Virus record (IMG/VR): IMGVR_UViG_3300020021_000048 | Coordinates: 1 to 23,112 of that record | Length of the DNA: 23,112 bases | Strand: one strand, 5' to 3' | Source of the DNA: a virus | In this document: piece by piece, positions 1 through 23,106 of the stretch | How positions within the stretch are numbered: position 1 is the stretch's first letter | Layout of the letters: each line of letters begins with the position of its first letter | Program-made: the position numbers and the translations under genes | The notes under the pieces: generated by a model | Database searches by the model: none | What the model saw: the letters and a program-made list of their open reading frames with translations, nothing else | What the model was told of the DNA's origin: nothing

Positions 1-482
1 TCGGCCAGGGTTGTGACGGTGCTGGACACAGTGCTGCCACTGATTACTACCGGCGTAGTGCCGGAAAAGTCCGGATCGTCACAAATGATCGAGATTGTGG
101 CTTTCGGGTCATTGGTGAAGAGCGGGGCCACGAAGGTCTCGACTCTCCCCGTTGCGTCCACGATCAGTCCGTCGTCCATGTAGAAACGAAGACTGACTAC
201 TGCCTTCGGGAGGAAATATGAGTACAGCTGGTTCCTGACGGCACGGACCGAGGTCGTGAGATAGTCTGGCCGCAAGCCCAGAGTGATCACGATGTTCCTT
301 GAGCCGCGGACACTGTTCTGGTACTGCACCCCGTCACGGCTGGCGTAGTTCGAGGTCGTGATCGTGGCGTTAACCGGATCGAGACCGTCGACATCCTGAA
401 CCTGGAGCCCAGAATTGAGATCCAGCAGTGACAGGGTCAGGAGGTCGCCTTGAGGCGTCCGTACTTCGATCAAATTGATCAT
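1..482 (-). CDS. Distal tail (Dit-like) protein, partial
   Basis: About 160 N-terminal codons are visible before the gene leaves the window at its left edge. The start ATG overlaps the tape measure stop in an ATGA arrangement, so translation is probably coupled. The protein begins MINLIEVRTPQGDLLTL and continues with RNIVITLGLRPDY, NQLYSYF, VVSLRFYMDDG, a segment reading GRVETFVAPLFTNDPKA and then ISIICDDPDF. This order (residues set to a rotated beta fold, an LY..F helix, a G.VE..... F segment and a CDDPDF-like end) resembles the N-terminal domain of siphophage distal tail proteins, which form the ring joining the tail tube to the baseplate. Position directly after the tape measure gene fits that role. 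The family assignment rests on pattern recognition, not on a search; a generic minor tail protein is the alternative. Confidence 0.75.
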   Translation of the reverse strand, partial: MINLIEVRTPQGDLLTLSLLDLNSGLQVQDVDGLDPVNATITTSNYASRDGVQYQNSVRGSRNIVITLGLRPDYLTTSVRAVRNQLYSYFLPKAVVSLRFYMDDGLIVDATGRVETFVAPLFTNDPKATISIICDDPDFSGTTPVVISGSTVSSTVTTLA

Positions 483-3400
483 GGAACCTTCACAACCTCC
501 TTAAGGGTGGAAATCTGGTTCTTCGTCTGACGGTAGATTTCGACCGCAGAGAGAGCCTTGGGCGAGTAGTTGTTTTGGGTGTAACTGACAGGTGCCACAG
601 GTCCGGTCGTAGCCGTCGTCTGGGTCGAAGCCGCCACATTGGACATGTGACCGGAAGACGCAGCGAGAGCCTTGGAATATGCGGAGTTGACAGAAAGAGA
701 CTGCGAACTCAACACTCCACCGATCTGACTCGCGGACTTCTTGACACTGGACAAGTCCAGAATCGGTGTGATTGTAGGCGCTGTGTCGATCCCACCGGAT
801 ATGAGGTCGGACATGCCGGTTAGCGACTTCGCGAGAGACGTCACAGCGGTCTGTCCCATGTTCGAGGCGGACTTGGCGATGGCGTCGGTGGAATCGTCGA
901 GGCCTTGAACGAGACCGTCGCCGGAGAAATTACCCACGCTCCGGAGAACCTTGGACGGGGACTTGATTCCAAGCTTCTTGTTGATGGCCTTGATCATCGC
1001 TTCGGCGATCTTTTCCATCTGCTTCTCGATTGCAGACTGCTGGTCCTGAAGACCCTTGACCAGACCGGCGGCCGCATCGACCGCTGCCTGGTAGAGGTCT
1101 GTAGAGGCAGTCTTGCCCATTCCGATAGCAGCTGCGTCGAGCTGCTTGTCCAGGGCGTTGATCTGATCGACACTCATCTTACCGCCAGCGAGAAGCTGCT
1201 GGGCGAAGGGAAGATCAGCTATACCACCAGCGAGAAGCTGCTTGTACGTGTCGTCGTTCAGACCAAGATCACGGAGACGCTGCAGCGTGGTGGCCAGCGT
1301 CTGGGTGTCACTGATCTGCTTCTGAAGGCTGACCTCGTAGTCACCGACGGACTGCATGTCCGTAGTGGCGTCAGGGAGTTCCGGAAGCGTCTGGTACTGC
1401 TGGGTGATCTGGGTGTTGAAGTCGGCCATGGTCTTCTGCGCGTCAGTCAGAGCACTCTGTGCAGTAGTGATCTTCGTGGTGAGCGCATCGTACTGGTCGC
1501 CGAGCTTCCCGAGAGCGGTCTGCTGGGGCTTCAGCGTCTTCGTCAGCTCCGTGTAGGCAGCGGACTCGGCCTTGTGCTCCTTCTCAGCCTGGGCAAGCGC
1601 CTTGTTGGTCTGAGCGATCTCGGTGTAGTCCTTGTGCCGGGCCTTGGTCAGGCTCGACAGCTTGTTCTTCAGACTGTCGATCGTGTTGGCAGAATCGTTC
1701 ATACCAGTGATCAGCTGGTTGGCCAGAGTGGTGACGGCCTTCTTGACTCCTGCGGTGTTGCTGTTGATGCCGATGGCGAAGCCGTTGTCGACATCCTGGC
1801 CGATCTTGATGAACTCCTTCGACGGCGAGTGGCTGTCAAGAGCGTGCTTGGCCGAGGATATGGCAGACCTCGCCAGCTTCTCAGCCTCAGACGCGATCTT
1901 GCCGATACCGCCAGCCATACCGCTGATCATACCTGTGACCATCGCGGAACCGAGGTTTGCACCTGCGGCGCCCATCGCCTTGGAGTTCTTGCGAATCGCG
2001 TCCGCAACACCGTTGACGAACTTGATAGCCAGGTTCGCGCCTGCCTGAATGATCTTGGGCAGGTTCTTGGCGACGGCGTTGGTGAACGCAACCACCATGT
2101 TCACGGCTGCCGTGACAAGCCCGGGGGCCTTCTTGGCTATGCCGTTGAGGAGAGACGTGATCAGACCCATTCCAGCACTCACCAGGTGGGGTTCGTACTT
2201 CACCGCTGCGTCGACGAGCTCGGTCAGCAGGGTACCCAGTGTGTGGAGAATCTTCGGTGCGAGCTGATCGATAGCGCTCAGCAGGGACTCGAGCAGAGTG
2301 ACGATCGCCTTGACGATAGCCGGAGCACTCTTCCCGATGACGTCGGCGAAGGCTAGGAGAGCCGCACCGAAGTCCTTCACGATGACCGGCAGAGTTCCAG
2401 CCAGACCCGTGACGATGGCGATCAGCGCCACGCCTGCAGCGGCGCCCGAGACCGACAGAGCCGTCAGGCCTGCCGAGAACGCCAAGACACCCACGCCAGC
2501 CAGCAGGACACCAGCACCGATGAGAGTGATGGCAAGTCCGAGGCCGATCAGGGTCGGAACCACAGGAGTCAGTAGCGCTCCTGCCACACCGAAGATGATG
2601 AACACGCCAGCCAGCTCGAGCAGACTCTTGCCGATCTCGCTCCAGGACATGTCGCCCATGGCTAGCAGAACCGGCGTGAGAATGGCCAGAGAAGCCGCCA
2701 CTATGAGCAGGGCAGCAGCACCGGGAAGCGCTTCGGTCATGAGGATCATTGCTGCCGAGATCAGGAGAAGAGATCCACCCCACGACATGTCTCCCATTTT
2801 GATCAAAGCGTCAGTGATCGCACCAAGCGACAGAGACACGACCCAAAGGGCAGCAGCGCCAGGCAACGCCTCGGTCATCAGAGCCATAGCGCCAGCGATG
2901 ATAGCAAGAGCACCGGCCAGTTCGACCAGACTCTTAGCGATCTCGCTCCACGACATGGACCCCATTTGCTGTAGGGCCTTGACGATGAGTTGAAGCGAGG
3001 AAGCAACGACCAGAACCGCGGCCGCCGACAGAAGGGACTCCGGGGGGATCAGGGTAAGAGCCAAACCAATGGCCGCCAGCGACCCGGTCAGCGCAGTCAG
3101 TCCCTTACCGATCTCCTGCCAGGAGAACTGAGCGAAGATCTTCATCGCCTGAGCGAGAATCTCGATGCCCGTAGCCAGCAGGATCAGTCCGATACCTTGA
3201 AGGACGCCACCCTTGTCCGCATCAGCGAACTTGGTGAACAGAGCCAGACTTCCCAGCAGAACTCCGACGCCGATAAGACCCTTGGCCAGTTCGGTCCAAC
3301 TGAGCGCGGACAGCTTCTTGACCGCGTCGACCAGGATCTCGATACCCGCAGCAAGGATCACGAGACCGATGCTGGTGGAGATGAGACCGGACGACGGAGG

Positions 3401-5743
3401 CATCCGCTTCACTGTTTCGACCATCTCCGCGAGGATGATGGCGAGTCCCGCGAGTCCGTGCTTGAGCTGGCTCATGTCCAGCGAGGCCAGCTTCTTGACC
3501 GCATCGGCCAGGAGGTTGACCGCGATCGCCAGCCCGATGAAGGCCAGACTGATGATCGGGAGCTTGACGAAGCCGGTGGTTCCGAGGACCTTCTGGAGGA
3601 CCGCCATCGAACCGAGCAGTTCGCCGAACAGAACGCCGATTGCAGTGACCGAACGCTGCAGACCACCAGCGTCGATCTTCGACAGTGTCGAGATGGACAG
3701 GGCCAGAATACCAATGGCTACGGCGATCTCGAGGAGAGTCGCGGCCTTCAGCGTTCCCTGCATTGTCTTCAAAGTGCCCGTAAGCGCGTCGATAGACTCG
3801 GTGAATGCGTGTACCAGACCGCCACCACCGCCGAGACCGCTTCCCAGCAGGCTGCTCGAGAACTTCCTGACCAGTAGGATGAGACCTGCGAACAGCCCCG
3901 TGTTGATCGTCCCGAGGACGTCGGAGAAGTTCAGGTTGCTCAGACTGGACAGGATTTGATTGCCCAGATTGTTGAAGAACGTACCGAACTTCTTGGCCAG
4001 GGGTTCGAACTTCTGGGCAATCTTACCGATCGAATCGGTGAACTTGCCCCATGCTGCCTGGACAATATCGAGAAGCTTGCCCATCGGACCCAGCTTGGCT
4101 GTGACACCGACGATCGACGATTCAGCCTTCGCGCCGTCAAACTTCCCGAAGAGCGACTCAACGTAAGTGCCGAGTTCCCGAATATACTTGATCGGAATCT
4201 GCAGCTTCGCCGTCAGCTTGTCGAAGAAATTGGCGAGAACCTGGCCCTTGTCATTGGCGTTCTTGAGATTAACCAGCCAGTCACCGATACTTGCGGTGAA
4301 CTTCAAGATTCCGCTGGAGCCCTTGGTCGAGGACTCGAAGAGATTCACCAACATCTTGACGATGTCCTTGACGACATCGATTCCGAGACTGATGGCAGCG
4401 AAGACACCGGCGAAGGTCCGCTTGAGTTCGTCGGCGCCGGTCTTGCTGATCTGCAGATTCTCGATGAAGACGTGGAACGCTGCGATGAGCTTGAATATCT
4501 GCTCAGCGGTCACCGGCGGGAAGATCTCCCGGAATGCTTGTTGGATCGGCTTGATGAAATCGCCGAGTTCCTTGAACGCCAGCTTGAAGGCGTCGATCAG
4601 AGCGGTTCGACCGCCGAGCTTGTCCACTCCCTGCAGCAGAGTGTTAAGTGCATAGACAGGCTTGGTCAGTGCGTTCTCAGCGACGTTGTGAATCGCCGTG
4701 AACAGAGTCGTCGCCTGGCCGATGTTGCCGAATATCGTCTTGAAGATCGACGCATAGGCGGTGGCGACTTCTTCCTTCAGCGCATCGGTCAGCTGTGAGA
4801 AGGTCTTGATCTGGGTAGCCGCGTTTACCGCGATCTGACCGGTCTTCAGAATACCTTCGGCCTGCTTGGCCGAGAAACCCATAGACTCGATCTGCTTCTT
4901 GGTCAGGTCGCCAGTGAACTGGGAAAGCGTCTTCTCCAGAATGTTGGAGGTCAGCCAGCCCTTCTGCAGGGACTCGCGGAAGCTACCGGCCTTCTTGATG
5001 ATCTTGTCGATGTTGACGCCGGAAGCACGAGCTGTGTTCTCCAACGCCGTTTGGAACGTCTTGCCGCCGAGTCCTGCGTTGACGACGGAGTTCCAGTCCT
5101 GAAGATGGACCGACCCGGCGGCGATCGCCTGGGACAGCTGGTACATCGCTGTCGAGGCCTGCTCCGAGTTCGAGCCCGACAGAGCTGCGAGGTTGGCGAT
5201 GCCCTTGATCGCGGCAGCTGCAGGCTTGAGCTTCACACCCGCCGCGGTGAACGTGCCGATGTTCTGGGTCATCTCACTGAAGTTGTACACCGTCTTGTTG
5301 GCGTACTCGTTCAGCTCTGCGAGAACCTTGTTGACGTCGCCGATCTTTGTACCCTCGGACGCGGTGTTCGCGAGGATAGTCTGAGTGGCCTTGATCTGGG
5401 TCTCGTAGTTTGTGAAGCCAGCCTTGATCGGGTCGATCGTCAGAGCCTTGGCGATTCTCTCGCCAGCGTTTAGGGCCTTGGTCGTAATATCGGACAGGAC
5501 CGTGAGGCCCACGACCGACATGGCTTTGAACTTGTTGCCGATGGCGTCGACACCGGACGAGATACGATCCAGTCCGGAGACGTTCTTGGCTGCTGAGTCA
5601 ACGTCCTCCAGGCCCTTGGTGGCGCCCGTGAGCTGAAGCTGCTTGGTGAATCGACCCAAGGAGTCGCGCGACTGGGCGATCCCTGCCTCGAACTGCCTGT
5701 TGTCGAACTCGAGTTGAACAATTCGTTGGTCAATAGTCGTCAT
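479..5743 (-). CDS. Tail tape measure protein
   Basis: A protein of 1754 residues that sets tail length and is thought to be ejected with DNA. I chose the ATG at 5743 (MTTIDQRIVQLEF) because it overlaps the preceding stop as ATGA; an upstream in-frame ATG at 5764 would lengthen the overlap without a better ribosome site. The N-terminal 300 residues contain the typical tape measure domain (NYETQIKATQTILANT, LAELNEYANKTVYNFSEMTQ, LSGSNSEQAS). Residues about 600-1110 are very hydrophobic and built from degenerate tandem repeats. The C-terminal third has a long charged helical/coiled-coil region framed by two SPSK-type motifs (HSPSKEFIKIGQDVDNGF and KSPSKVLRSVGNFSGDGL), common in tape measure proteins. 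At roughly 0.15 nm per residue, the usual scaling, the tail would be about 260 nm long. Confidence 0.96.
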   Translation of the reverse strand: MTTIDQRIVQLEFDNRQFEAGIAQSRDSLGRFTKQLQLTGATKGLEDVDSAAKNVSGLDRISSGVDAIGNKFKAMSVVGLTVLSDITTKALNAGERIAKALTIDPIKAGFTNYETQIKATQTILANTASEGTKIGDVNKVLAELNEYANKTVYNFSEMTQNIGTFTAAGVKLKPAAAAIKGIANLAALSGSNSEQASTAMYQLSQAIAAGSVHLQDWNSVVNAGLGGKTFQTALENTARASGVNIDKIIKKAGSFRESLQKGWLTSNILEKTLSQFTGDLTKKQIESMGFSAKQAEGILKTGQIAVNAATQIKTFSQLTDALKEEVATAYASIFKTIFGNIGQATTLFTAIHNVAENALTKPVYALNTLLQGVDKLGGRTALIDAFKLAFKELGDFIKPIQQAFREIFPPVTAEQIFKLIAAFHVFIENLQISKTGADELKRTFAGVFAAISLGIDVVKDIVKMLVNLFESSTKGSSGILKFTASIGDWLVNLKNANDKGQVLANFFDKLTAKLQIPIKYIRELGTYVESLFGKFDGAKAESSIVGVTAKLGPMGKLLDIVQAAWGKFTDSIGKIAQKFEPLAKKFGTFFNNLGNQILSSLSNLNFSDVLGTINTGLFAGLILLVRKFSSSLLGSGLGGGGGLVHAFTESIDALTGTLKTMQGTLKAATLLEIAVAIGILALSISTLSKIDAGGLQRSVTAIGVLFGELLGSMAVLQKVLGTTGFVKLPIISLAFIGLAIAVNLLADAVKKLASLDMSQLKHGLAGLAIILAEMVETVKRMPPSSGLISTSIGLVILAAGIEILVDAVKKLSALSWTELAKGLIGVGVLLGSLALFTKFADADKGGVLQGIGLILLATGIEILAQAMKIFAQFSWQEIGKGLTALTGSLAAIGLALTLIPPESLLSAAAVLVVASSLQLIVKALQQMGSMSWSEIAKSLVELAGALAIIAGAMALMTEALPGAAALWVVSLSLGAITDALIKMGDMSWGGSLLLISAAMILMTEALPGAAALLIVAASLAILTPVLLAMGDMSWSEIGKSLLELAGVFIIFGVAGALLTPVVPTLIGLGLAITLIGAGVLLAGVGVLAFSAGLTALSVSGAAAGVALIAIVTGLAGTLPVIVKDFGAALLAFADVIGKSAPAIVKAIVTLLESLLSAIDQLAPKILHTLGTLLTELVDAAVKYEPHLVSAGMGLITSLLNGIAKKAPGLVTAAVNMVVAFTNAVAKNLPKIIQAGANLAIKFVNGVADAIRKNSKAMGAAGANLGSAMVTGMISGMAGGIGKIASEAEKLARSAISSAKHALDSHSPSKEFIKIGQDVDNGFAIGINSNTAGVKKAVTTLANQLITGMNDSANTIDSLKNKLSSLTKARHKDYTEIAQTNKALAQAEKEHKAESAAYTELTKTLKPQQTALGKLGDQYDALTTKITTAQSALTDAQKTMADFNTQITQQYQTLPELPDATTDMQSVGDYEVSLQKQISDTQTLATTLQRLRDLGLNDDTYKQLLAGGIADLPFAQQLLAGGKMSVDQINALDKQLDAAAIGMGKTASTDLYQAAVDAAAGLVKGLQDQQSAIEKQMEKIAEAMIKAINKKLGIKSPSKVLRSVGNFSGDGLVQGLDDSTDAIAKSASNMGQTAVTSLAKSLTGMSDLISGGIDTAPTITPILDLSSVKKSASQIGGVLSSQSLSVNSAYSKALAASSGHMSNVAASTQTTATTGPVAPVSYTQNNYSPKALSAVEIYRQTKNQISTLKEVVKVP
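2498..3686 (-). repeat. Degenerate tandem hydrophobic repeats in tape measure gene
   Basis: About seven protein-level repeat units of roughly 56-65 residues lie in tandem. Each begins near a motif such as LSALSWTELAKGL, FAQFSWQEIGKGL, MGSMSWSEIAKSL or MGDMSWSEIGKSL and ends in a hydrophobic helix of the form GIEILVDAVKK or SLAILTPVLLA. One unit (MGDMSWGGSLLLISAAM) lacks about ten residues in its first helix. Adjacent units near 2712-2749 and 2850-2887 are still similar at DNA level (both encode MTEALPGAAAL), pointing to fairly recent duplication. Confidence 0.8.
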
Positions 5744-6117
5744 GCAGAGATCACCGCCTGCCACACCCTGTCAGCGATTAGGTCGAATACCGGCGAGATC
5801 GCCGGATTTATGAAGTCTCTTCCTTGGACGTAGCCACCGGTTCCGGTGCCGTGTCCGTACTGCAACATGATGACCACCGGGAAGCCGTTCTCGACGTCGC
5901 TGTTCGTCCAGGAGATCGTGTACGTACCGTTCGCAGCAATTATCTCATAGCCCCATGAATGCGAGGCCAAACCCGTGTAGACCGGGGTGGCGCGGTAGAG
6001 AGCGTTGGCCCCTACGATCGCGTAGTCGTGCAAGATCTTGGAAATATCCAACTTGCCAACCCGAGCTACAAAGGCTTCCAACTGCTTGGTGGAGCCCTTC
6101 ACAATAACTGAAATCAT
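5740..6117 (-). CDS. HK97 gp10-like tail/neck protein
   Basis: A 125-residue protein starting at ATG 6117 behind a strong GGAAGGAG ribosome site, ending as ATGA overlap with the tape measure start. The sequence has a short N-terminal beta strand (ISVIVKGSTKQLEAFVARV), a helix, then ATPVYTGLASHSWGYEI and a C-terminal VIMLQYGHGTGTGGYVQGRD-like segment followed by FINPAI. The pattern 'P.dTG.l..sw....' plus 'yGtg...g..G..fi.pa' is typical of the HK97 gp10 family, small proteins at the head-tail interface or tail terminus. The family is usually encoded with the neck genes before the major tail protein; here it directly precedes the tape measure gene, so its exact role is uncertain. Confidence 0.7.
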   Translation of the reverse strand: MISVIVKGSTKQLEAFVARVGKLDISKILHDYAIVGANALYRATPVYTGLASHSWGYEIIAANGTYTISWTNSDVENGFPVVIMLQYGHGTGTGGYVQGRDFINPAISPVFDLIADRVWQAVISA

Positions 6118-10374: not shown

Positions 10375-12492
10375 TTAGCTGGCAGCCGGACGCTGGAACG
10401 TCCACTCGTCCTGACCGGCAGTGCCGGTGACCGAGAAGAAGTAACCGGCGCTCGCGACGGCCCGCACCAGCTCGGAGGTGCCCGCGGCCAGCGCGGTCTG
10501 AGCACCGGCGGTCAGGGTGGTCCCGTCGCCGTTCTTGTAGACCACGCCGGCCTGGGTCGGGATGGTGATGACGCCGGTCGCGGGGACGAACGTCGCGGGC
10601 GTCGGGACCAGCACGGTGCCGGTGACCGAGGACAGGACCATCGCGCTCTTGACCTTGACGAGAGCACCCGACATGCGGGTCTCCATCAGGTACTTGAGCT
10701 GGTTGTAGTCGATGTCGAAGAAGTCAAACAGGTTGACCTCCCCGCCGCGGTCGGTGCCGATGTTGTAGTCGGTGAGGTTGACCACGATGCCGAGCAGGTT
10801 CGGGAACCGGAGCATCGGCTCCACGGCGACGACGTCCGAAACGCCCATAGCCGCAGCCAGCGCCTGCTTGTTGTCGTAGTTGCGGTGGAGGTTGGCGTCC
10901 TTCGACAGCAGCAGCTTGTTGATGGTCCGCTGGGTGGCGTAGAACACCGGGTTGCCGGTGCCCTTGTAGTACTGGCTGGCGTCCAGGACCTGGTCGGCGA
11001 CCTCGTCCCAGTTGGAGCCGGTGTCGGAGACGTTGACGTTGACCCGGGTGACGTACAGCTCGTCGTCGTTCAGGATCGAACGGACACCGGGGCCGGAGTT
11101 GGCGCCCGACGGGTCCAGCACGTGGTCCTCGTCCTCGGGGTCACGGCCGTCACCGAGCAGGATCGCGACGGCGACCTCCTCCGAGAGCATGATCCGCATC
11201 TCGCCCTTGAGCCAGACGACGACGTCGAAGTCGACGATGTCCAGGACGTCGTCCCGGTCCAGCTTCTGCTTCTTGTAGACCGTGGTGGGGGTGGTGGTCC
11301 GGCTGGTGAGCTGGATCCACTCCTCCTTCTTGAAGTTGCCCTTGACGTAACCCTTGGCGCGGGCCTCGTCCAGGGTGATGTCCGCGACGATGGTCTTGAT
11401 GCGCGAGAACGGGCTCTTGCGGGTAGAGTCCAGGACGTTCTGGACCCACGCCATGTTCCGGCTGTTGAAGTCCGGGGTGGAGTTCAGCAGCTGGGGGTTC
11501 GGGAACAGGGCGTCGACGCTCTCGATGCCGTGCTCGACGACGTAGTCCGCGAGGGTGTCCATCAGGGAGCCGGACTTCTTGGCATCCTTGAAGATCGCCT
11601 TGAGGCCGTCCTCGTCGATGTTGTGGCGGATGACCCCGCCATCGGTGGTCTTGTTCTTGTTGGCCTGCTCGAACACGTTCGTCACGGGGCCGGTTCCTTC
11701 CTGGTGGGCGAGGTCGCCCTCGGTGGTGTTCTCGTCGTCCTTGTCGTCGCCGTCCGCGTGCTGGGTGTCGTCTCCGGAACCCTGCGCGGCCAGACCGACC
11801 ATGACGTCGACGAGCTTCTTCTGCTTGGGCGTGAACGTGTCGTACACGGCCTGAGCGGACGCATCGTCCGCGGTGTCCGCGCTGTCCTCGGCATCGGCGC
11901 CATCGCCGTCACCACTGCTGTCGCTGGAGGCAGAGGGGACGGGCTTCTTGGCGGTCGACGTCTCGGTCTTCGTAGCGACCGGGGGGACGGCCTTGGCGGC
12001 GGGCTTCGTCGCGTGGGCGAAGCTCTCCTCCTCGATGTTGAATCCGAGGTGGATGACGATCTCGTCGCTGATGGTCTCGATGTCGTCCTCGTCGGCGCCG
12101 TGCCGAACCTGGACGTTCTCGATCGTCGCGCCGGGGTTGGCGCCCGCGAGGACCAGGCTGACCTCACGGATGTTCCCGTGGACGACCGACTTGCCCTGCA
12201 TGGCGACGTTGTTGGCGTAAATCGACATCGCCTTGATGTCACCGTGCTGGACCTGGATCTTGCCGTTCTTGCCGCCCTCGGTCTCGTTGAAGTACCCGTG
12301 GGCCCAGATGCCATCCGGACGGGCTTCGAGGATCGCGTGGCCGAGCACGTTCTTGTTGTCGCTGTGCTTGTGGTTCCAGACCAGCGGAACCTGCATCTTG
12401 TCCATGTGCTGGAAAGCGGCGGGCGTGATGGTCTTTCCGTCGGTGCACTTCAGGTTCGCCTTGGTGGCGTAACCACCGAAATCAGCTTCCAT
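10375..12492 (-). CDS. Prohead protease-major capsid fusion protein
   Basis: A 705-residue protein with three parts. Residues 1 to about 150 resemble the HK97-type prohead protease: PLVWNHKH (H41/H43), VLGHAILEARPDGIW, a catalytic-Ser-like IKAMSIYA (S90), and GNIREVSLVLAGANPGA. Residues about 160-285 form a low-complexity acidic linker, a likely scaffold/delta region removed at maturation. Residues about 290-620 are an HK97-fold major capsid protein (DYVVEHGIESVDALFP, SRIKTIVADI, DIVDFDVVVWLKGEMR, NLFDFFDIDYNQLKYLMETR, MSGALVKVKSA). Residues about 625-705 are an extra immunoglobulin-like domain (ATGVITIPTQAGVVYKNGDG). The start overlaps the portal stop by 11 bases; AGGAGG lies upstream. Strong GC3 bias fits high expression. 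The fusion implies self-cleavage by the N-terminal protease, an inference from the architecture. Confidence 0.92.
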   Translation of the reverse strand: MEADFGGYATKANLKCTDGKTITPAAFQHMDKMQVPLVWNHKHSDNKNVLGHAILEARPDGIWAHGYFNETEGGKNGKIQVQHGDIKAMSIYANNVAMQGKSVVHGNIREVSLVLAGANPGATIENVQVRHGADEDDIETISDEIVIHLGFNIEEESFAHATKPAAKAVPPVATKTETSTAKKPVPSASSDSSGDGDGADAEDSADTADDASAQAVYDTFTPKQKKLVDVMVGLAAQGSGDDTQHADGDDKDDENTTEGDLAHQEGTGPVTNVFEQANKNKTTDGGVIRHNIDEDGLKAIFKDAKKSGSLMDTLADYVVEHGIESVDALFPNPQLLNSTPDFNSRNMAWVQNVLDSTRKSPFSRIKTIVADITLDEARAKGYVKGNFKKEEWIQLTSRTTTPTTVYKKQKLDRDDVLDIVDFDVVVWLKGEMRIMLSEEVAVAILLGDGRDPEDEDHVLDPSGANSGPGVRSILNDDELYVTRVNVNVSDTGSNWDEVADQVLDASQYYKGTGNPVFYATQRTINKLLLSKDANLHRNYDNKQALAAAMGVSDVVAVEPMLRFPNLLGIVVNLTDYNIGTDRGGEVNLFDFFDIDYNQLKYLMETRMSGALVKVKSAMVLSSVTGTVLVPTPATFVPATGVITIPTQAGVVYKNGDGTTLTAGAQTALAAGTSELVRAVASAGYFFSVTGTAGQDEWTFQRPAAS

Positions 12493-13950: not shown

Positions 13951-14370
13951 CTACTTGGACGTGACGTTGTGGACGCCCTGCTTGTTCTGCTTGGCGGCCC
14001 GCGGGGTGTTGTAGTTGATCGTGCCTTGACGCTGGCCTTCGACCCGGTTGTTGTGAGCCTTTACCGTGATCGTTTGGACCGCTACCGGTCCGTATTTCAG
14101 CAGGATCCTCGCCGTGATGAGGGCTCCGACGAAAGCCGCCCGCTGCTTGTTCTGGCGGGAAAGCTCAGCAGCTCGGGCTTCCGTGTGCGTCTGTCCGGCG
14201 TGCAGTCGGTTATTGATCCGGTTAGCTCCGCGCTGGCCGAAATCACCGGCGTCGGTGCGTTGGTGGTATGGCGTGTAGCTTGAATGAACACTGACCGGTT
14301 CGCCAGATTTGTGCACACCCCACTTCATGCCCTTGACACCCTGGTGAACCAGTTCCGCAGGAGTACTCAT
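13951..14370 (-). CDS. GMKWG-motif protein with membrane-like helix
   Basis: A 139-residue protein of unknown function. The N-terminus carries HQGVKGMKWGVHK at residues 9-21, the motif that occurs twice in the 315-residue protein encoded at 16403-17350. A hydrophobic stretch at about 78-100 (AAFVGALITARILLKYGPVA) could cross a membrane or form a buried helix. The rest is basic and rich in Asn, Gln, Arg and His, without acidic clusters. The gene starts 3 bases after the preceding stop with no visible ribosome site, so it probably depends on translational coupling to the decoration-like gene. The location between decoration protein and portal suggests a minor head component or assembly factor; I cannot name a function. 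GC3 is lower than in the neighbouring decoration gene. Confidence 0.75.
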   Translation of the reverse strand: MSTPAELVHQGVKGMKWGVHKSGEPVSVHSSYTPYHQRTDAGDFGQRGANRINNRLHAGQTHTEARAAELSRQNKQRAAFVGALITARILLKYGPVAVQTITVKAHNNRVEGQRQGTINYNTPRAAKQNKQGVHNVTSK

Positions 14371-16402: not shown

Positions 16403-17350
16403 TTACGGGAGTCCGGAAACCTTCCGAGCAACCTTGCCGAGAGGACTGGTGTAGACTCCGTGGATCCGTTGAGCGGTGTTGACGAGATCCAGGATCTTCT
16501 TGACCTGCTTGTGGCCGTTCTCGACTGGGTTGTCCTCGACGAGCTTGTCGTACTGCTGTTCCAGGTTCATCCGAGTGATGACGTCCTGGAGATCCTTGTT
16601 CGAGAGAACCCGGGTGCCGTGCGTCCCGATCTTCTCCTTCTGCTTGTCGACGTTCTTGACGTCCTCGGAGTCAGCCTTTCGAGGAGCGGCTTTGTGGGCA
16701 GACGGAGTGCCCGTTCCGGCCTTGCGAACGCCCCACTTCATACCCTTGACGCCAGACTGCTCGATCTCGGTGTCACCGATCGAGACGATATGGCCGGTAG
16801 CGTCGTACTTGACCGGGATGTTGAACGAATCCTCGGAACCATCGTTCATCGCAGAATGCGTGACGTCTTCGACCTTTACGTTCCAAAAACCGTTCTCACT
16901 CGTAGTGATGGAGTACTTCTTGGTGCCTGAGGCGTTGGTCCCCTGCTCGGCTGCGGCCTTCTGCAAGTTCTTGACGAAGGCGTCGTTGTGTTCCTTGTAG
17001 TACTTCCGCCGCAAAGGGGAATCGAGATTGAAGTCCTTGTTCTTGTACTGCGGCTTGTTGTTGATCCGCTCGACATCGTGATCGTTCGTCGCTCGAGCCG
17101 CACTGTTGTGGATCTTGATAGTGACGTTGTACGATTTGGAGTTCTTCTCGAAGTTCTTGTCGAGCTTGGCGATCTTCGAAGTCTTGGCCGCCTCGCCCTC
17201 GTGACCGTGATCCTTTCGGACGCCCCACTTCATACCCTTGACGCCGGACTGCTCGACATCGTCATCGAAGAAGTCGAGTTCGCCGACGTGCTGGAGGATA
17301 TACTCGACGGTCAGTGGCCCCACATGCTCGACGCTTGCGGATCGACCCAT
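16403..17350 (-). CDS. Protein with two GVKGMKWGVRK motifs, head-region
   Basis: A 315-residue protein of unknown function. ATG 17350 is chosen because GGAAGGAG lies just upstream; it overlaps the preceding gene by 40 bases. The nearly identical motif SGVKGMKWGVRK occurs at residues 35-46 and 199-210, each preceded by an acidic E-containing VEQ/IEQ stretch and followed by a basic, low-complexity tail. Between the copies, residues about 60-195 look like a folded alpha/beta domain (LDKNFEKNSKSYNVTIKIHN, ASGTKKYSITTSENGFW). The C-terminal third contains RVLSNKDLQDVITRMNLEQQ followed by YDKL, a helical motif often found in phage minor head or scaffold-like proteins. The layout suggests a capsid-assembly or packaged protein. 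I cannot assign a reaction; motif function is unknown to me. Confidence 0.8.
   Translation of the reverse strand: MGRSASVEHVGPLTVEYILQHVGELDFFDDDVEQSGVKGMKWGVRKDHGHEGEAAKTSKIAKLDKNFEKNSKSYNVTIKIHNSAARATNDHDVERINNKPQYKNKDFNLDSPLRRKYYKEHNDAFVKNLQKAAAEQGTNASGTKKYSITTSENGFWNVKVEDVTHSAMNDGSEDSFNIPVKYDATGHIVSIGDTEIEQSGVKGMKWGVRKAGTGTPSAHKAAPRKADSEDVKNVDKQKEKIGTHGTRVLSNKDLQDVITRMNLEQQYDKLVEDNPVENGHKQVKKILDLVNTAQRIHGVYTSPLGKVARKVSGLP
16728..16764 (-). repeat. Direct repeat copy 1 encoding GMKWG motif
   Basis: This 37-base segment matches positions 17220-17256 at 36 of 37 bases, the one difference being at 16754 versus 17246. It encodes the second EQSGVKGMKWGV motif of the 315-residue protein. Near-identity including silent positions points to a recent duplication or gene conversion. 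Confidence 0.9.
17220..17256 (-). repeat. Direct repeat copy 2 encoding GMKWG motif
   Basis: Partner of the repeat at 16728-16764, encoding the first EQSGVKGMKWGV motif of the same protein. The third, more divergent occurrence at about 14310-14345, in another gene, keeps the core ccccacttcat.cccttgac on the plus strand. Confidence 0.9.
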
Positions 17351-17688
17351 GAATCTCCTTCCCTCACTACGTTGATCTTCCACGCGTACTCTTCGATCTG
17401 CTTGGTCATCGCTTCGATGACGAACGACAGCGAAGGCGGGTCGAAGAGCATACGTACCTTTAGATATACGTATGACTTGACGTTGTTGTTACGGTTGTCG
17501 GTCCCGAGGAAGGCGTCCCACGTTTCCGAGTCGTCTTCGATCATGAAACCGTCGACAGGTCCGATCCCGAGCAGAGCCAGGTCGGAAAATGTCGAGTTGA
17601 TGTGGAGGATGAGCACGTCATCGAAGTCGGTGTTGGCCTCGGCTACGCTGAGGGACTTCTTGACGCTTGTCAGGATGCTGGTGATCAC
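17311..17688 (-). CDS. gp6-like head-tail connector protein
   Basis: A 125-residue protein. The GTG at 17697 sits with no spacer after GGGAGG, so I use the GTG at 17688 (VITSILTSVKKSL), which has the same site at an ideal 8-base spacing. The sequence ITSILTSVKKSLSVAEANTD, VLILHINSTFSDLALLGIGP, ETWDAFLGTD, NNVKSYVYLKVRMLFDPP and SFVIEAMTKQIEEYAWKINV is all helical and fits the gp6/YqbG-type connector family that forms the ring below the portal. Here it lies between the endolysin and the GMKWG-motif gene, before terminase and portal, instead of after the capsid gene, which is an uncommon place. Role assigned from pattern; moderately sure. Confidence 0.75.
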   Translation of the reverse strand: MITSILTSVKKSLSVAEANTDFDDVLILHINSTFSDLALLGIGPVDGFMIEDDSETWDAFLGTDNRNNNVKSYVYLKVRMLFDPPSLSFVIEAMTKQIEEYAWKINVVREGDSWVDPQASSMWGH

Positions 17689-19421: not shown

Positions 19422-19515
19422 GGACCTTTCGGATCTCCTGAATGAACCGCTGGGGGTAAAAACTTTGCCGGAATTTTCCCGCCGGGGATTTTTTTGGTGG
19501 ACGGGCGATGCAACA

Positions 19516-19540
19516 GGGGGCCATTTTTGCTAGACCCCCC
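19516..19540. other. GC-run hairpin, cos-like candidate
   Basis: A run of five G (19516-19520) faces a run of six C (19535-19540) across a short AT-rich loop containing TTTTTGCT. No U-run follows on either strand, so it is not a standard intrinsic terminator. GC-rich palindromic sequence before terminase and HNH genes is compatible with a cohesive-end site, but this is an inference only. Confidence 0.3.
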
Positions 19541-19607
19541 GCCCCATAGGCAAATTTTGACAATCTATGTTTTCCCAACGCAGAGTATCTTTTTTCTGCA
19601 ACTAGTA

Positions 19608-19682
19608 GGCTGCAGGGTCTATAGTACCATCAATAGGAGTTAGGCACGTCATCCCATTGATGATACAACAGACCCTGCAGCC
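19608..19682. repeat. 75-nt inverted repeat with perfect 13-bp outer stem
   Basis: The arm at 19608-19620 (GGCTGCAGGGTCT) is the exact reverse complement of 19670-19682 (AGACCCTGCAGCC). Inside, 19624-19626 pairs with 19664-19666, 19628-19634 (CATCAAT) pairs with 19656-19662 (ATTGATG), and 19636-19638 pairs with 19652-19654, leaving a 13-base loop. The whole is a long, nearly continuous hairpin, starting just past the stop of the 86-residue gene. Neither strand has a U-run after the stem. It could be a structured RNA end that stabilises or is processed from the upstream message, a site for a dimeric DNA-binding protein, or a terminator of another kind. Confidence 0.8.
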
Positions 19683-19692
19683 GACCAGTACG

Positions 19693-19953
19693 CTATGAAG
19701 TTGTTGATGTGTCAGAGCTCGAAGGCTTCGTGAGTTTGAGGTACAATCCCGAATTCAACGAGACGATCTCATCGACTGCACTAACGATAGCAAGCATCTG
19801 ATCAGGTTGTGACAGTTCATGTGATGTCTTAGCGATCCGTGCTAGGTACCCTAGGGTGTCGTACCTAGGGTAGTCCCAAGCATGCCACTCATTGAACTGA
19901 GTGAATGGGTTGAACGGATTGTCAGACGTCGTGAGCATCACGTCATCACTCAT
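19693..19953 (-). CDS. 86-residue protein of unknown function
   Basis: I start this at ATG 19953 (MSDDVMLTTSDNPFNPFTQF) because it overlaps the end of the polymerase-like gene by 8 bases and has GGAAGG upstream; the longer frame runs over that gene. The sequence NPFNPFTQFNEWHAWDYPRY is rich in aromatics, followed by the helical LGYLARIAKTSHELSQPDQM and AIVSAVDEIVSLNSGLYLKL and a Ser/Thr-rich tail. I recognise the NPFNPFT..NEW pattern as a small actinophage protein type but know of no function. It is probably co-translated with the polymerase-like protein and could be a partner of it; that is a guess from position. Confidence 0.75.
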   Translation of the reverse strand: MSDDVMLTTSDNPFNPFTQFNEWHAWDYPRYDTLGYLARIAKTSHELSQPDQMLAIVSAVDEIVSLNSGLYLKLTKPSSSDTSTTS

Positions 19954-22675
19954 CGTCGCCTTCCTTCGGCTTGAGTGCACGCTTGAGTGCAGACACAGAC
20001 ACGCCCAACGCTTCAGCGATCTCAGCCTGTGTGTGTCCGCTACGTGCGTACGTGAGAGCAAGACTCTTCTGTGAAGAGGACAGTCCTACCTCGGCCTTAG
20101 GTGTAGCCAGCTTCTTGATCTTGTCGAGGTCAGCATTGTCCAGGATCTGTGTCAGCTTGTTAGTGCTGATAGCACCAGCCTGAATGGCAGCCCACTCGCC
20201 AGGTGTGATGTCGATCAACTTCTTCTGTGCACCAACTCTGTTGCGAGCGTTCTCAAGCTCGATGAACTTAAGCTTCTTAAGTTCGTCCTTGTCCATGTCT
20301 GGATTGGAAGCCCGCTTCTGGGCGACCACGGCATTGGCTACGATCTGAGCCTGCCGTTCACGGGGGCTGTTCCTAAGGGCCTGAGCCAACTTGTAGTTGA
20401 GGGAGTCTACCTCGTCCTTGTACGCCACCTTGGCTGCAGGTGAGTACGCCATAGACTTGGTCGTGTCGAGCTCTTTCCTCGCCTGATTGGCCAGTGCCTT
20501 AAGGTTGTTACTGTGATCGGCGTAGATCTTCTCGATTGGCATGCCGGAAGACAGAGTGTGCGCATCGGTAGCCTCAGCGAGCTTGGTAGAACGCTCGGTC
20601 TTGTTGACCGTCTCCGTTGTTTCCTTGCCTGCCTTGTTAACTGTGGTCTTCACGTAAGACGCGCCAGTCTCCGTGAAGATCTTCTCTCCATTGGGACCGA
20701 TCTTGTACCCCTGCTTGCGCTCAGGCACATCCAATCTCGAACTTGCCCTTGAGATCACGGTCTGGGCACCGGCGTTGGATGCGCCTTGGTACTTCTCCTT
20801 GAGAGCAGGGATGCCGTTCTCGATGGCTGATCTACGGTAGTCGAGATTGTGCTTCTCGGCGTCGATCACCACCATCGAGTGCTTGACAGCTCGTTCGAGT
20901 TCGTTGTTGGGCGCGCCTTTGATGGTCATGTCCGAGATGAGATTGGACACGTTGCCCATCTCGAAGCCCTTTTCGGTGGGCGTCATCCTGTGCATTCCAG
21001 GATACTCACGGTACTGAGTCTTCGGGTCGAAATCCTTCAACCCTTCAAGCATGGGTTGAGTCTTGACCTTGCGCTCATTGTTCGGGATGACCAGAACTGT
21101 GTCACCGTCGAAGTCGGCGCCCGACAAGTGTTCGGCAACACTACTGTGAATGCCGATTGCGTCAGACGCTTGGCCGAGGAGTTTCTTCGCTTCGGCCTGA
21201 CGGTTGTTGACGGTGAGTTCGGGGATCTCGAACGTTCCACCGTGAGGGTAACGAACCAGAACGACTTTCTCGCCGTCCTTGAAGTTCGGTGCGTAGACCT
21301 CAGTCGGCTTCATGGACTCGATCGGAAGTATGACCTGCGTGCGCTGCCGAGGAAGACTCGCTGCCTTGAGATGAACAGCCGCCGAGTCTGCGTCATCCGC
21401 GAAGGATTGCAGCAGACGCTTCTTAACAGCCGGATTGCTCAACCTAGAGAGTTCGTCGAGTTCGGTTTGCTTGTTCTCGAGAGTCTTGGCGAGCTGAGTC
21501 TTGGCGAGGATCGGACTCTGCTTCGATAGGAACTGGGAAGCGAGAGACTTCGACCACTCTTCCCAGTCACCTTCCTTGTTCACGACGTTCATCGCAGACG
21601 AGACCGTGTTCGGAATGTCGCGACCGAACGAGTCCTTTTCCTTGATCTGATCGACCACGGATCCGAACGGGTTCTCTTGGTCGACGTCACCAGTCGCCTT
21701 GTCCAACTTCAACGGCTTCATGGCGTCAAGCTTGTTACCGGTGTCGCTCTTGTTCGTGTTGAACACGAGATCCGTCCCGGCAGGGAGATCGTCTCGGTAC
21801 ATCGCCATACCCTTGAGATAATGTGTCCCGTCGACGGCGACACGTACCTGGGCATAACGAGATTGACCGAGAGAGACGTCCTTGACACCGGGACGGACGT
21901 AGATGACACCGTCAGCTTCCCTACCGCCTTCTTCGGCGTATCTGACTGCGACACGCTTGGAGTCGATAGAGATTGGCGGCTGTATCTTGCTGTACGTCCG
22001 ACCACCGTCGTCCGAGATGTCGGTGGGCGGTGAGATCTTTCCCTTGTTCGCGACCAGGTCGAGGAACGTCGAATCGGGGCCGATCAGAACCTTCAGGTTC
22101 GTCTGATGACTGGTTCCGAGTTGCTGGACCTTGATCCGATGAACGGTGTAGCCCTCGTTCTCCAGAACAGAGACAGCCTTCTTCAGCTTGTCGTTCGAGA
22201 TGCCCATATGGAGTTCGACGCCGGAACCGATGTCTACGAACTGCTTCTCGGCAACCGCGTTCCGCAGAACGTTGGCCGTGACATCGAGAACCTTTAGCTT
22301 GTCCAGCTCTCCAGGCCTCAGGTACAGACGCACAGTGGGTTCGGGAATGCCCAGCTGCTTGCCGATGGCGGTAGTGGACATGCCCTTGTTCCGGAGCTTC
22401 TGAGCCGTGAGGATGGAGTCTTGCTTCGCCGCGTTCTTAGCGATGGAGCGAGCATTTCGGAGATCGCCGGTCGTGATTTTGAAGCTCTTGGCGATCTCTG
22501 ACTCCGACAGACCCTGAGCCTTCAGATCGTCCACCATCTGGAGGAAGACCTTGTTGCGCTGAGCCTGGGACTTGTTGGCGTGCTCTCCGGATCCCCAAGG
22601 ATAACGACCAGACTTTCGGAGGATTCCGTAATGCTTGACAACCTTGTCATCATACTCGTCTTCGCTGAAAATCAC
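19946..22675 (-). CDS. RNA polymerase beta-prime-like (DFDGD) protein with HTH segments
   Basis: A 909-residue protein, GTG start at 22675 (GTGA overlap with the nuclease stop; GGAGGAG upstream). Residues 519-530 read GADFDGDTVLVI, the Mg-binding D.DGD signature of the beta-prime double-psi beta barrel (D521, D523, D525). Forty-odd residues upstream, VVLVRYPHGGTFEIP (471-485) takes the place of the cellular 'LLNRAPTLHR' element, giving the same order as in beta-prime. YLKGMAMYRDDLPAG (286-300) may belong to a second barrel. HTH-like segments lie at 55-78 (GLSESEIAKSF), 99-121 (MSTTAIGKQLGIPEPTVRLY) and 868-901 (HTQAEIAEALGVSVSALKRA). Residues 565-615 hold conserved-looking EKGFEMGNVSNLISDMTIKG and MVVIDAEKHNLDY. 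YonO-type and crAss-like single-chain polymerases are known precedents; polymerase activity here is inferred, not shown. Confidence 0.82.
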   Translation of the reverse strand: MIFSEDEYDDKVVKHYGILRKSGRYPWGSGEHANKSQAQRNKVFLQMVDDLKAQGLSESEIAKSFKITTGDLRNARSIAKNAAKQDSILTAQKLRNKGMSTTAIGKQLGIPEPTVRLYLRPGELDKLKVLDVTANVLRNAVAEKQFVDIGSGVELHMGISNDKLKKAVSVLENEGYTVHRIKVQQLGTSHQTNLKVLIGPDSTFLDLVANKGKISPPTDISDDGGRTYSKIQPPISIDSKRVAVRYAEEGGREADGVIYVRPGVKDVSLGQSRYAQVRVAVDGTHYLKGMAMYRDDLPAGTDLVFNTNKSDTGNKLDAMKPLKLDKATGDVDQENPFGSVVDQIKEKDSFGRDIPNTVSSAMNVVNKEGDWEEWSKSLASQFLSKQSPILAKTQLAKTLENKQTELDELSRLSNPAVKKRLLQSFADDADSAAVHLKAASLPRQRTQVILPIESMKPTEVYAPNFKDGEKVVLVRYPHGGTFEIPELTVNNRQAEAKKLLGQASDAIGIHSSVAEHLSGADFDGDTVLVIPNNERKVKTQPMLEGLKDFDPKTQYREYPGMHRMTPTEKGFEMGNVSNLISDMTIKGAPNNELERAVKHSMVVIDAEKHNLDYRRSAIENGIPALKEKYQGASNAGAQTVISRASSRLDVPERKQGYKIGPNGEKIFTETGASYVKTTVNKAGKETTETVNKTERSTKLAEATDAHTLSSGMPIEKIYADHSNNLKALANQARKELDTTKSMAYSPAAKVAYKDEVDSLNYKLAQALRNSPRERQAQIVANAVVAQKRASNPDMDKDELKKLKFIELENARNRVGAQKKLIDITPGEWAAIQAGAISTNKLTQILDNADLDKIKKLATPKAEVGLSSSQKSLALTYARSGHTQAEIAEALGVSVSALKRALKPKEGDDE

Positions 22676-23106
22676 GAAATCTCCTCCTCTCTCTCCCTGG
22701 TGATGATCGCATCGAGCATCACGATCTTGCTCATGATCTGAACAATCTCGCCCATGTCCTCGACGACGTATTCGGCGAAAGTGTTGTTCTGGTAGATCCG
22801 AAGGACCACGTGAGTCTCGTACGGCTTGACTTGGAGTTTCTCGTACTCGAGAAAGAAGATCGCTGCGTAGATCAGCAGTTGGCCGAACGAGACCTTCGAG
22901 GTGCCTGTTTTGAGGTCGTGAATCCTCAAAGTGTTCTGGCGATACGCGATCGTGTCAGCAGTGCCGAAGCAGTTCGGAGAATAGAACAACGTCTGTTCTG
23001 ACGTCATCTTGAACCCGATAGCGTCGTTGACATACTGATGTATCGTCTTCTTGGTATCCGGAAGATTGATCTTCTCGGTGATCAGGTCGTGCGCGATGGC
23101 GATACA
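22672..23106 (-). CDS. RecB/Cas4-like PD-(D/E)XK nuclease, partial or broken N-terminus
   Basis: The C-terminal 144 residues of a nuclease. Visible elements are CFGTADTIAY (motif II Asp), RIHDLKTG (motif III D.K) and FGQLLIYAAIF (Q...Y motif), the order found in RecB, Cas4 and related phage exonucleases that process DNA ends. Before the first ATG at 23007, the same frame already reads coherent protein (IAHDLITEKINLPDTKKTIH, then QYVNDAIGF), so translation begins earlier and the true start is outside the window. An in-frame TGA at 23107-23109 interrupts it at the edge, while the neighbouring frame there reads TDV, as if one base were missing. It overlaps the polymerase-like gene by GTGA, suggesting a common operon for DNA and RNA metabolism. 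Confidence 0.75.
   Translation of the reverse strand, partial: CIAIAHDLITEKINLPDTKKTIHQYVNDAIGFKMTSEQTLFYSPNCFGTADTIAYRQNTLRIHDLKTGTSKVSFGQLLIYAAIFFLEYEKLQVKPYETHVVLRIYQNNTFAEYVVEDMGEIVQIMSKIVMLDAIITREREEEIS

Follow-up and report, generated by a model that had tools for sequence, protein, structure and literature searches.

How does an RNA polymerase (RNAP) that consists of a single two-barrel chain find its promoters? The question is open for this class of enzymes as a whole, and for YonO, the RNAP of Bacillus phage SPbeta, the promoter and any helper factors are still to be determined (PMC5467207). It is raised here by a gene in IMG/VR record IMGVR_UViG_3300020021_000048, a virus contig of 23,112 bases, the whole of which was analysed (hereafter, the window; feature coordinates are window positions). 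The gene, at positions 19946 to 22675 on the minus strand, has a GTG start and encodes a protein of 909 amino acids (aa), which is almost certainly a two-barrel RNAP. For this enzyme, we describe a candidate for the promoter, a further promoter class and, as a candidate cofactor, the product of a small companion gene; with the companion gene and the promoter-like elements added, what had been an annotation becomes a transcription system that can be tested. Of the 250 phage records in which the polymerase is found, many belong to phages in culture (of Streptomyces, Gordonia, Arthrobacter, Lactococcus and others), which opens the system to experiment.

The explanation that best accounts for the locus as a whole, and which we hold with about as much confidence as doubt, is the following. 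The open reading frame (ORF) would encode a DNA-dependent two-barrel RNAP of the YonO/QDE-1 type, working with a small obligate partner, the product of the overlapping PHROG 4303 gene. For transcription, the polymerase would use two promoters: a dedicated one, CGCA-N4-TTACA-N5-TATART, for the early and middle genes of the phage, and a variant of it, CGCR-N4-AAACA-N5-TATWAT, for its own operon. The upstream boxes would be read by helix-turn-helix (HTH) segments fused to the polymerase, by the partner, or by both. An enzyme reading early promoters must be present early in infection; it would thus either be packaged in the virion or be made first by the host RNAP. If true, this would be a minimal, possibly sigma-independent relative of cellular RNAP and a new orthogonal expression tool, and hundreds of annotations as 'HTH protein' or 'RNA-dependent RNA polymerase' would be corrected.

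The polymerase family and its predicted fold

The protein matches the PHROG 4291 profile over its full length (E = 0, 1271 bits, residues 8-902 against a 909-position profile), and the ORF is therefore not a chance finding. A preliminary description of the locus had presented the domain layout as one not known to be characterised; the sequence family is, however, already known rather than new. It was found by tblastn in 250 of 50,697 phage records (Arthrobacter 95, Gordonia 55, Streptomyces 54, Lactococcus 13, others), with 448 confirmed candidate relatives in IMG/VR and 64 loci in bacterial genomes, mainly those of gut Clostridia. The relatives infect or reside in actinobacteria, lactococci and clostridia; two scans of viral contigs with diverged members as query returned one locus or none. 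Lactococcus phage 1706 orf75, Streptomyces phage Rima gp86 and Arthrobacter phage Circum gp98 share with the window protein the full-length family, the HTH layout and the genome position, with no structural difference. Public labels include 'helix-turn-helix DNA-binding', 'RNA-dependent RNA polymerase' (also the label of PHROG 4291 itself), 'hypothetical', 'tail fiber' and 'transcription factor D5', and no reported activity was found for the family in the open-licence literature searched, which omits most subscription papers.

The active-site order recognised in the preliminary description, an R.P element followed by DFDGD, is borne out: LVRYPHGG occupies residues 473-480 and GADFDGD residues 519-525, and an alignment of 34 diverse members shows no variation at R475, P477, G480, D521, D523 or D525. 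Both motifs lie in a beta-prime-type barrel (residues 445-531; 21083 to 21343, minus strand) recovered by alignment, profile, model and Foldseek, with the catalytic DFDGD at 21101 to 21115 on the minus strand. A beta-type barrel region is predicted at residues 255-367 (21575 to 21913, minus strand), where R278, K288 and K309 are invariant; on the basis of the alignment, the two lysines are candidates for the paired basic residues of a beta-type barrel, and the fold match suggests that this region is DPBB-B (a double-psi beta-barrel). The three HTH-like segments described earlier likewise find Pfam or PHROG matches and coincide with helix triplets in the predicted model. All on the minus strand, these are segment 1 (residues 42-76; 22448 to 22552; PHROG 664 and 6831), segment 2 (residues 80-121; 22313 to 22438; PHROG 3855 at E 4e-10, with a weak GerE match) and the sigma-region-4-like segment 3 (residues 867-901; 19973 to 20077; HTH_23 at E 1.2e-10, Sigma70_r4_2 at E 1.1e-8). 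Given that both predicted barrels and all catalytic aspartates are kept in the 34 members, it is scarcely credible that the protein is a DNA-binding regulator or a structural protein devoid of polymerase activity, a reading for which the record annotations ('HTH DNA-binding', 'tail fiber', 'transcription factor D5') are the sole argument.

An AlphaFold2 model built on the 34-member alignment (mean predicted local distance difference test score, pLDDT, 81; predicted template modelling score, pTM, 0.64; residues 1-37 of low confidence) has strand-rich regions at residues 242-367 and 445-531. The top Foldseek matches in the PDB were QDE-1 (E 2.7e-8), P74 gp62 (2.2e-6), P32 gp64 (3.8e-6) and plant RDR2 (1.1e-4), with a probability of 1.00 for QDE-1 and P74 gp62, followed by weaker matches to Rpb1, bacterial beta-prime and phi14:2 gp66. 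The best matches are all two-barrel RNAPs, and this is the fold predicted for the window protein, an assignment that is based on the Foldseek E-values and the probability of 1.00 rather than on superposition or barrel geometry. Profile searches, which the preliminary description had proposed together with the structural comparison, also placed the protein with polymerases (PHROG 4291 and PHROG 8308) and with no non-polymerase family. The match to PHROG 8308, YonO's own family, has an E-value of 1.8e-4, and a profile-profile comparison with six YonO-type proteins (E 1.6e-5) extends over 130 columns, past the metal motif to MGNVSNLISDMT / IGEYSNNITKIW. When the columns of the YonO alignment were shuffled 200 times, the score peaked at 28.2, compared with 55.6 for the real alignment; shuffles of 15-column blocks reached 49.6, and the signal therefore stems mostly from the catalytic motif. 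A single YonO sequence gave no signal against the family profile, and a PDB sequence search with the catalytic part returned no significant match, just HTHs and helical repeats.

Among characterised enzymes, YonO resembles the polymerase in its single-chain two-barrel layout, in the succession of R.P and D.DGD and in the 130-column match around the second barrel and beyond; unlike the polymerase, it has no HTH-family match listed in the PHROG scan, and SPbeta lacks the promoter element. The non-virion RNAPs P23-45 gp64 and P74-26 gp62 are likewise phage single-chain two-barrel enzymes (fold E 2e-6) with a GADYDGD motif, and P23-45 gp64 matches the polymerase profile (E 6.6e-4); however, they measure about 600 aa, and P23-45 has no copy of the element. 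The virion RNAPs of the crAss-like phage phi14:2 (gp66) and of P23-45 (gp96) share the two-barrel chemistry, although the phi14:2 fold match is weak (E 0.028). The closest solved fold is that of QDE-1, which, like plant RDR2, is a eukaryotic RNA interference (RNAi) enzyme with about 11% identity to the polymerase. As QDE-1 is titled RNAi / RNA-dependent polymerase in the PDB, it joins the RefSeq/PHROG label and a weak match to PF05183, the RNA-dependent RNA polymerase family, at residues 512-607 (E 0.0098 here, about 1e-4 in two relatives) in favour of the enzyme being RNA-dependent, as named in some public records. We consider this quite improbable: the PF05183 score of 15.1 bits falls under the cut-off of 23.8, one QDE-1 entry (7y7t) has a DNA template, the three HTH domains suggest binding to double-stranded DNA, and YonO, a characterised relative from a phage, is reported to have a strict preference for DNA templates (PMC5467207). 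In all likelihood, the polymerase is DNA-dependent.

A promoter-like element accompanying the polymerase

Repeated segments around TATAAT-type boxes yielded a pattern, CGCA-N4-TTACA-N5-TATART followed by GAGACCCC or AGAA, that is shared by six phages of five host genera and has 0 occurrences in shuffled genomes. With up to 2 mismatches, it occurs in 2-18 copies in every one of 34 polymerase-carrying records (213 sites in total), compared with 3 sites for the reversed pattern; SPBc2 (YonO), P23-45 and phi14:2 have 0 copies. Within a record, all sites lie on one strand, which is the polymerase strand in the records compared. The converse test, from element to polymerase, is stronger than counting elements in polymerase records. 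The exact pattern was found in at least 120 stretches in IMG/VR and, among the matches listed, 30 of the 31 contigs of at least 42 kb that were taken encode PHROG 4291. The exceptional contig has 16 elements; one of its ends falls inside the capsid gene and the other a few kb beyond the helicase, and it has no polymerase because the segment that would hold that gene is missing from it. The reversed pattern was found in 51 stretches, with one match apiece, and none of 18 contigs of at least 35 kb encodes the polymerase. Near-matches also cluster near the polymerase in polymerase-carrying bacterial chromosomes; of the 4 in a 6.9-Mb Hungatella chromosome, 3 precede the prophage polymerase on the same strand, at a distance of no more than about 30 kb.

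In four annotated genomes, 36 of 45 element sites are wholly intergenic, even though non-coding sequence amounts to 6.5-9.2%, and the TATART box mostly ends 17-36 nucleotides (nt) ahead of an annotated start codon. The elements are found mainly in the early region just past the lysis module and are rare beyond the polymerase, where 4 of 55 loci with at least 5.5 kb of downstream flank have any. The element is a marker of early genes across this lineage, whose hosts range from Lactococcus to Streptomyces. Of 144 non-redundant loci, 102 have the AAACA variant 858-1101 nt ahead of the polymerase (control, 0), around the start of the VRR-Nuc gene, the first in the polymerase operon of relatives. 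The variant is followed by a purine-rich AGAAGGAG-like stretch and differs from the early class by a TT to AA change, which suggests two regulated promoter classes, TTACA for early genes and AAACA for the operon. A sigma-70 promoter scan of the window gave no excess.

Candidate readers of the element

The aligned element sites have no -35 box at 16-18 nt spacing, and the CGCA and TTACA boxes are alike in phages of low-GC (guanine plus cytosine) and high-GC hosts; for these two reasons, the element does not, by its sequence, correspond to a standard host promoter. A conserved phage-encoded reader is likely. The genes common to six genomes encode structural proteins, DNA polymerase, helicase, nucleases, a tail-assembly chaperone, a single-stranded DNA-binding protein, DUF6353, PHROG 4079 (of unknown function), the polymerase and its companion, and the polymerase is the only one among them with recognised HTH domains. 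This argument by elimination leaves the chances evenly balanced that the polymerase reads the element itself.

Alternatively, host RNAP with its housekeeping sigma factor might read the early elements, aided by a phage activator binding CGCA/TTACA, while the phage polymerase, made from the middle operon, would serve the late head and tail genes, as is reported of YonO in SPbeta. We take this to be a serious possibility, although one that falls short of even chances. It would account for the TATAAT box in the element, for the place of the polymerase gene as the last of the replication module, directly upstream of the late module, and for the paucity of elements in the late flank (the 4 of 55 loci above), and it has a precedent in late-gene transcription by YonO (PMC5467207). 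It is less easily reconciled with the lack of a -35 box at normal spacing in the aligned sites and with the same upstream boxes in Lactococcus, Clostridia and Streptomyces phages, which imply a conserved phage-encoded reader; furthermore, no other shared gene resembles a transcription factor (the function of PHROG 4079 being unknown), and no late promoter was identified.

Several observations weigh against early transcription by the phage polymerase from promoters of its own. The TATAAT box resembles the -10 box of host sigma-70, and YonO is reported to act on late genes (PMC5467207). The lineage shares many core genes, and the linkage between element and polymerase could thus reflect common descent; when DNA polymerase homologues were used to decouple the two, the full-length ones essentially coincided with polymerase carriers, and no clearly polymerase-less isolate was found among them. 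At the level of the protein, profile comparison detected no similarity between the N-terminal halves of the polymerase family and YonO, and the whole-model template modelling (TM) scores are low, about 0.3, probably owing to differing domain placement. Finally, the window has 0 copies of the element, because it covers only the late module and the last part of the replication module, with the early region and the operon start lying outside.

The reading in which the polymerase acts with its own promoters also involves the companion gene. The preliminary description spoke of a single chain, which holds for the catalytic two-barrel part, contained in one ORF, whereas the enzyme as a whole may be incomplete without the product of an ever-present neighbour. 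This gene (19693 to 19953, minus strand) encodes an 86-aa protein of PHROG 4303, a family without known function, and its ATG overlaps the polymerase stop by 8 nt in ATGAGTGA. In tblastn searches, run with the window protein and, separately, with a hand-written consensus-like query, the companion was found in exactly 250 phage records with genus and host tallies identical to those of the polymerase, the identity of the two record sets being judged from these tallies. Wherever the downstream sequence reaches 800 nt or more, which is the case for the window and 74 loci (75 sequences), the gene is present, as it is in all 150 sequences examined under a shorter downstream requirement; the count comes from a regular-expression scan with a few misses resolved by eye. 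The predicted fold is confident (AlphaFold2, pLDDT 89.6) and consists of a strand, three helices and a strand; a search against the PDB found no relative (best E 1.8). Conservation and invariable adjacency to the polymerase suggest that the companion is an accessory subunit or initiation factor, and the two proteins may be physical partners. No description of the companion gene or of the promoter-like elements was found in the open-licence literature searched. An apparent natural fusion of polymerase and companion in Lachnospiraceae 526-35 (L209:10013-12943) was rejected, as a frameshift in the C-terminal HTH puts the polymerase frame into the companion gene.

Possible virion delivery and the genome end

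The polymerase carries an N-terminal motif (residues 13-31, VKHYGILRKSGRYPWGSGE; 22583 to 22639, minus strand) in which H15, G17, S22, G23, R24, G28 and G30 are invariant across the 34-member alignment, and which is of low confidence in the model and probably disordered. In Streptomyces phage HotFries (L081:40515-40663), the annotated gp56 start (40664) leaves out this motif, and the motif-bearing frame begins about 110 nt upstream. In its first eight positions, the family form, LxHYG[VIT]...SGRYPWGSG, agrees with a motif at the N-terminus of DUF7211 proteins (score 20.5, compared with a maximum of 14.3 in 300 shuffles). The window itself encodes two DUF7211 proteins with the motif LxH[YH]G[VI][KL]GMKWGVRR, one at 13951-14370 and one at 16403-17383 (both on the minus strand), which have terminase and portal genes as neighbours. 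DUF7211 proteins also stand beside terminase/portal genes in relatives (L156, L159, L198, L207, L114 and L054), and in relatives the motif is joined to papain-fold glutamine-deamidase-like or LigT/2H phosphoesterase domains (with a weak Acb1 match). The deamidase and phosphoesterase domains might fit injected cargo. A search of the open-licence literature found nothing on the element or on the GVKGMKWGV motif.

These associations suggest that the DUF7211 motif is a packaging or ejection tag on cargo proteins and, as far as sequence resemblance can indicate, that the polymerase is packaged in the virion. The virion RNAPs phi14:2 gp66 and P23-45 gp96 are precedents for an injected RNAP; in P23-45 gp96, the RNAP and the tape measure protein form a fusion, whereas the polymerase described here is a separate gene, with the tape measure in another ORF (479-5764). 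The most far-reaching version of the proposal, in which a two-protein phage RNAP (the two-barrel HTH chain and its 86-aa partner) would recognise its two promoter classes, TTACA for early genes and AAACA for its own operon, without a sigma factor and would be carried in the virion through LxHYG...SGRYPWGSG to start early transcription, appears to us rather unlikely.

The gene had been described as lying next to the packaging/head operon, which is broadly correct, except that the polymerase gene belongs to the replication module, of which it is the last large gene, and that the companion gene, not listed earlier, and a cos-like block of about 70 bases intervene. Directly upstream of the polymerase is the 3' part of a RecB/Cas4-like exonuclease gene (22672 to 23007, minus strand; PF10926, E 1e-5), which belongs to the same operon in relatives. 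The gene order is helicase, HNH, VRR-Nuc and RecB/Cas4 exonuclease before the pair, and cos-like block and late module after it; in linear isolates of 43 to 114 kb, the pair lies at the extreme right end. The block (GGGGGGTCT..AAAAATGGCCCCC..GCATCGC..CCACCAAAAAAATCCCCGGCGGGA, with CCCCGGCGGGA in it; 19476 to 19545, minus strand) was delineated in an alignment of 18 loci and lies between the companion gene and the late module. Phages whose hosts are distant from each other have it in common, and linear phage genomes start and finish inside it (e.g., those of L081); it is therefore probably the cos site. Just past the companion gene, at about 19600-19683, there is a long inverted repeat (GGCTGCAGGGTCT ... 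AGACCCTGCAGCC), perhaps a terminator or a piece of the cos region. Elsewhere in the window, the capsid protease and the major capsid protein are joined in one 705-aa ORF (10375-12492), of a type for which the annotation in related phages of Gordonia and Arthrobacter is protease/capsid fusion.

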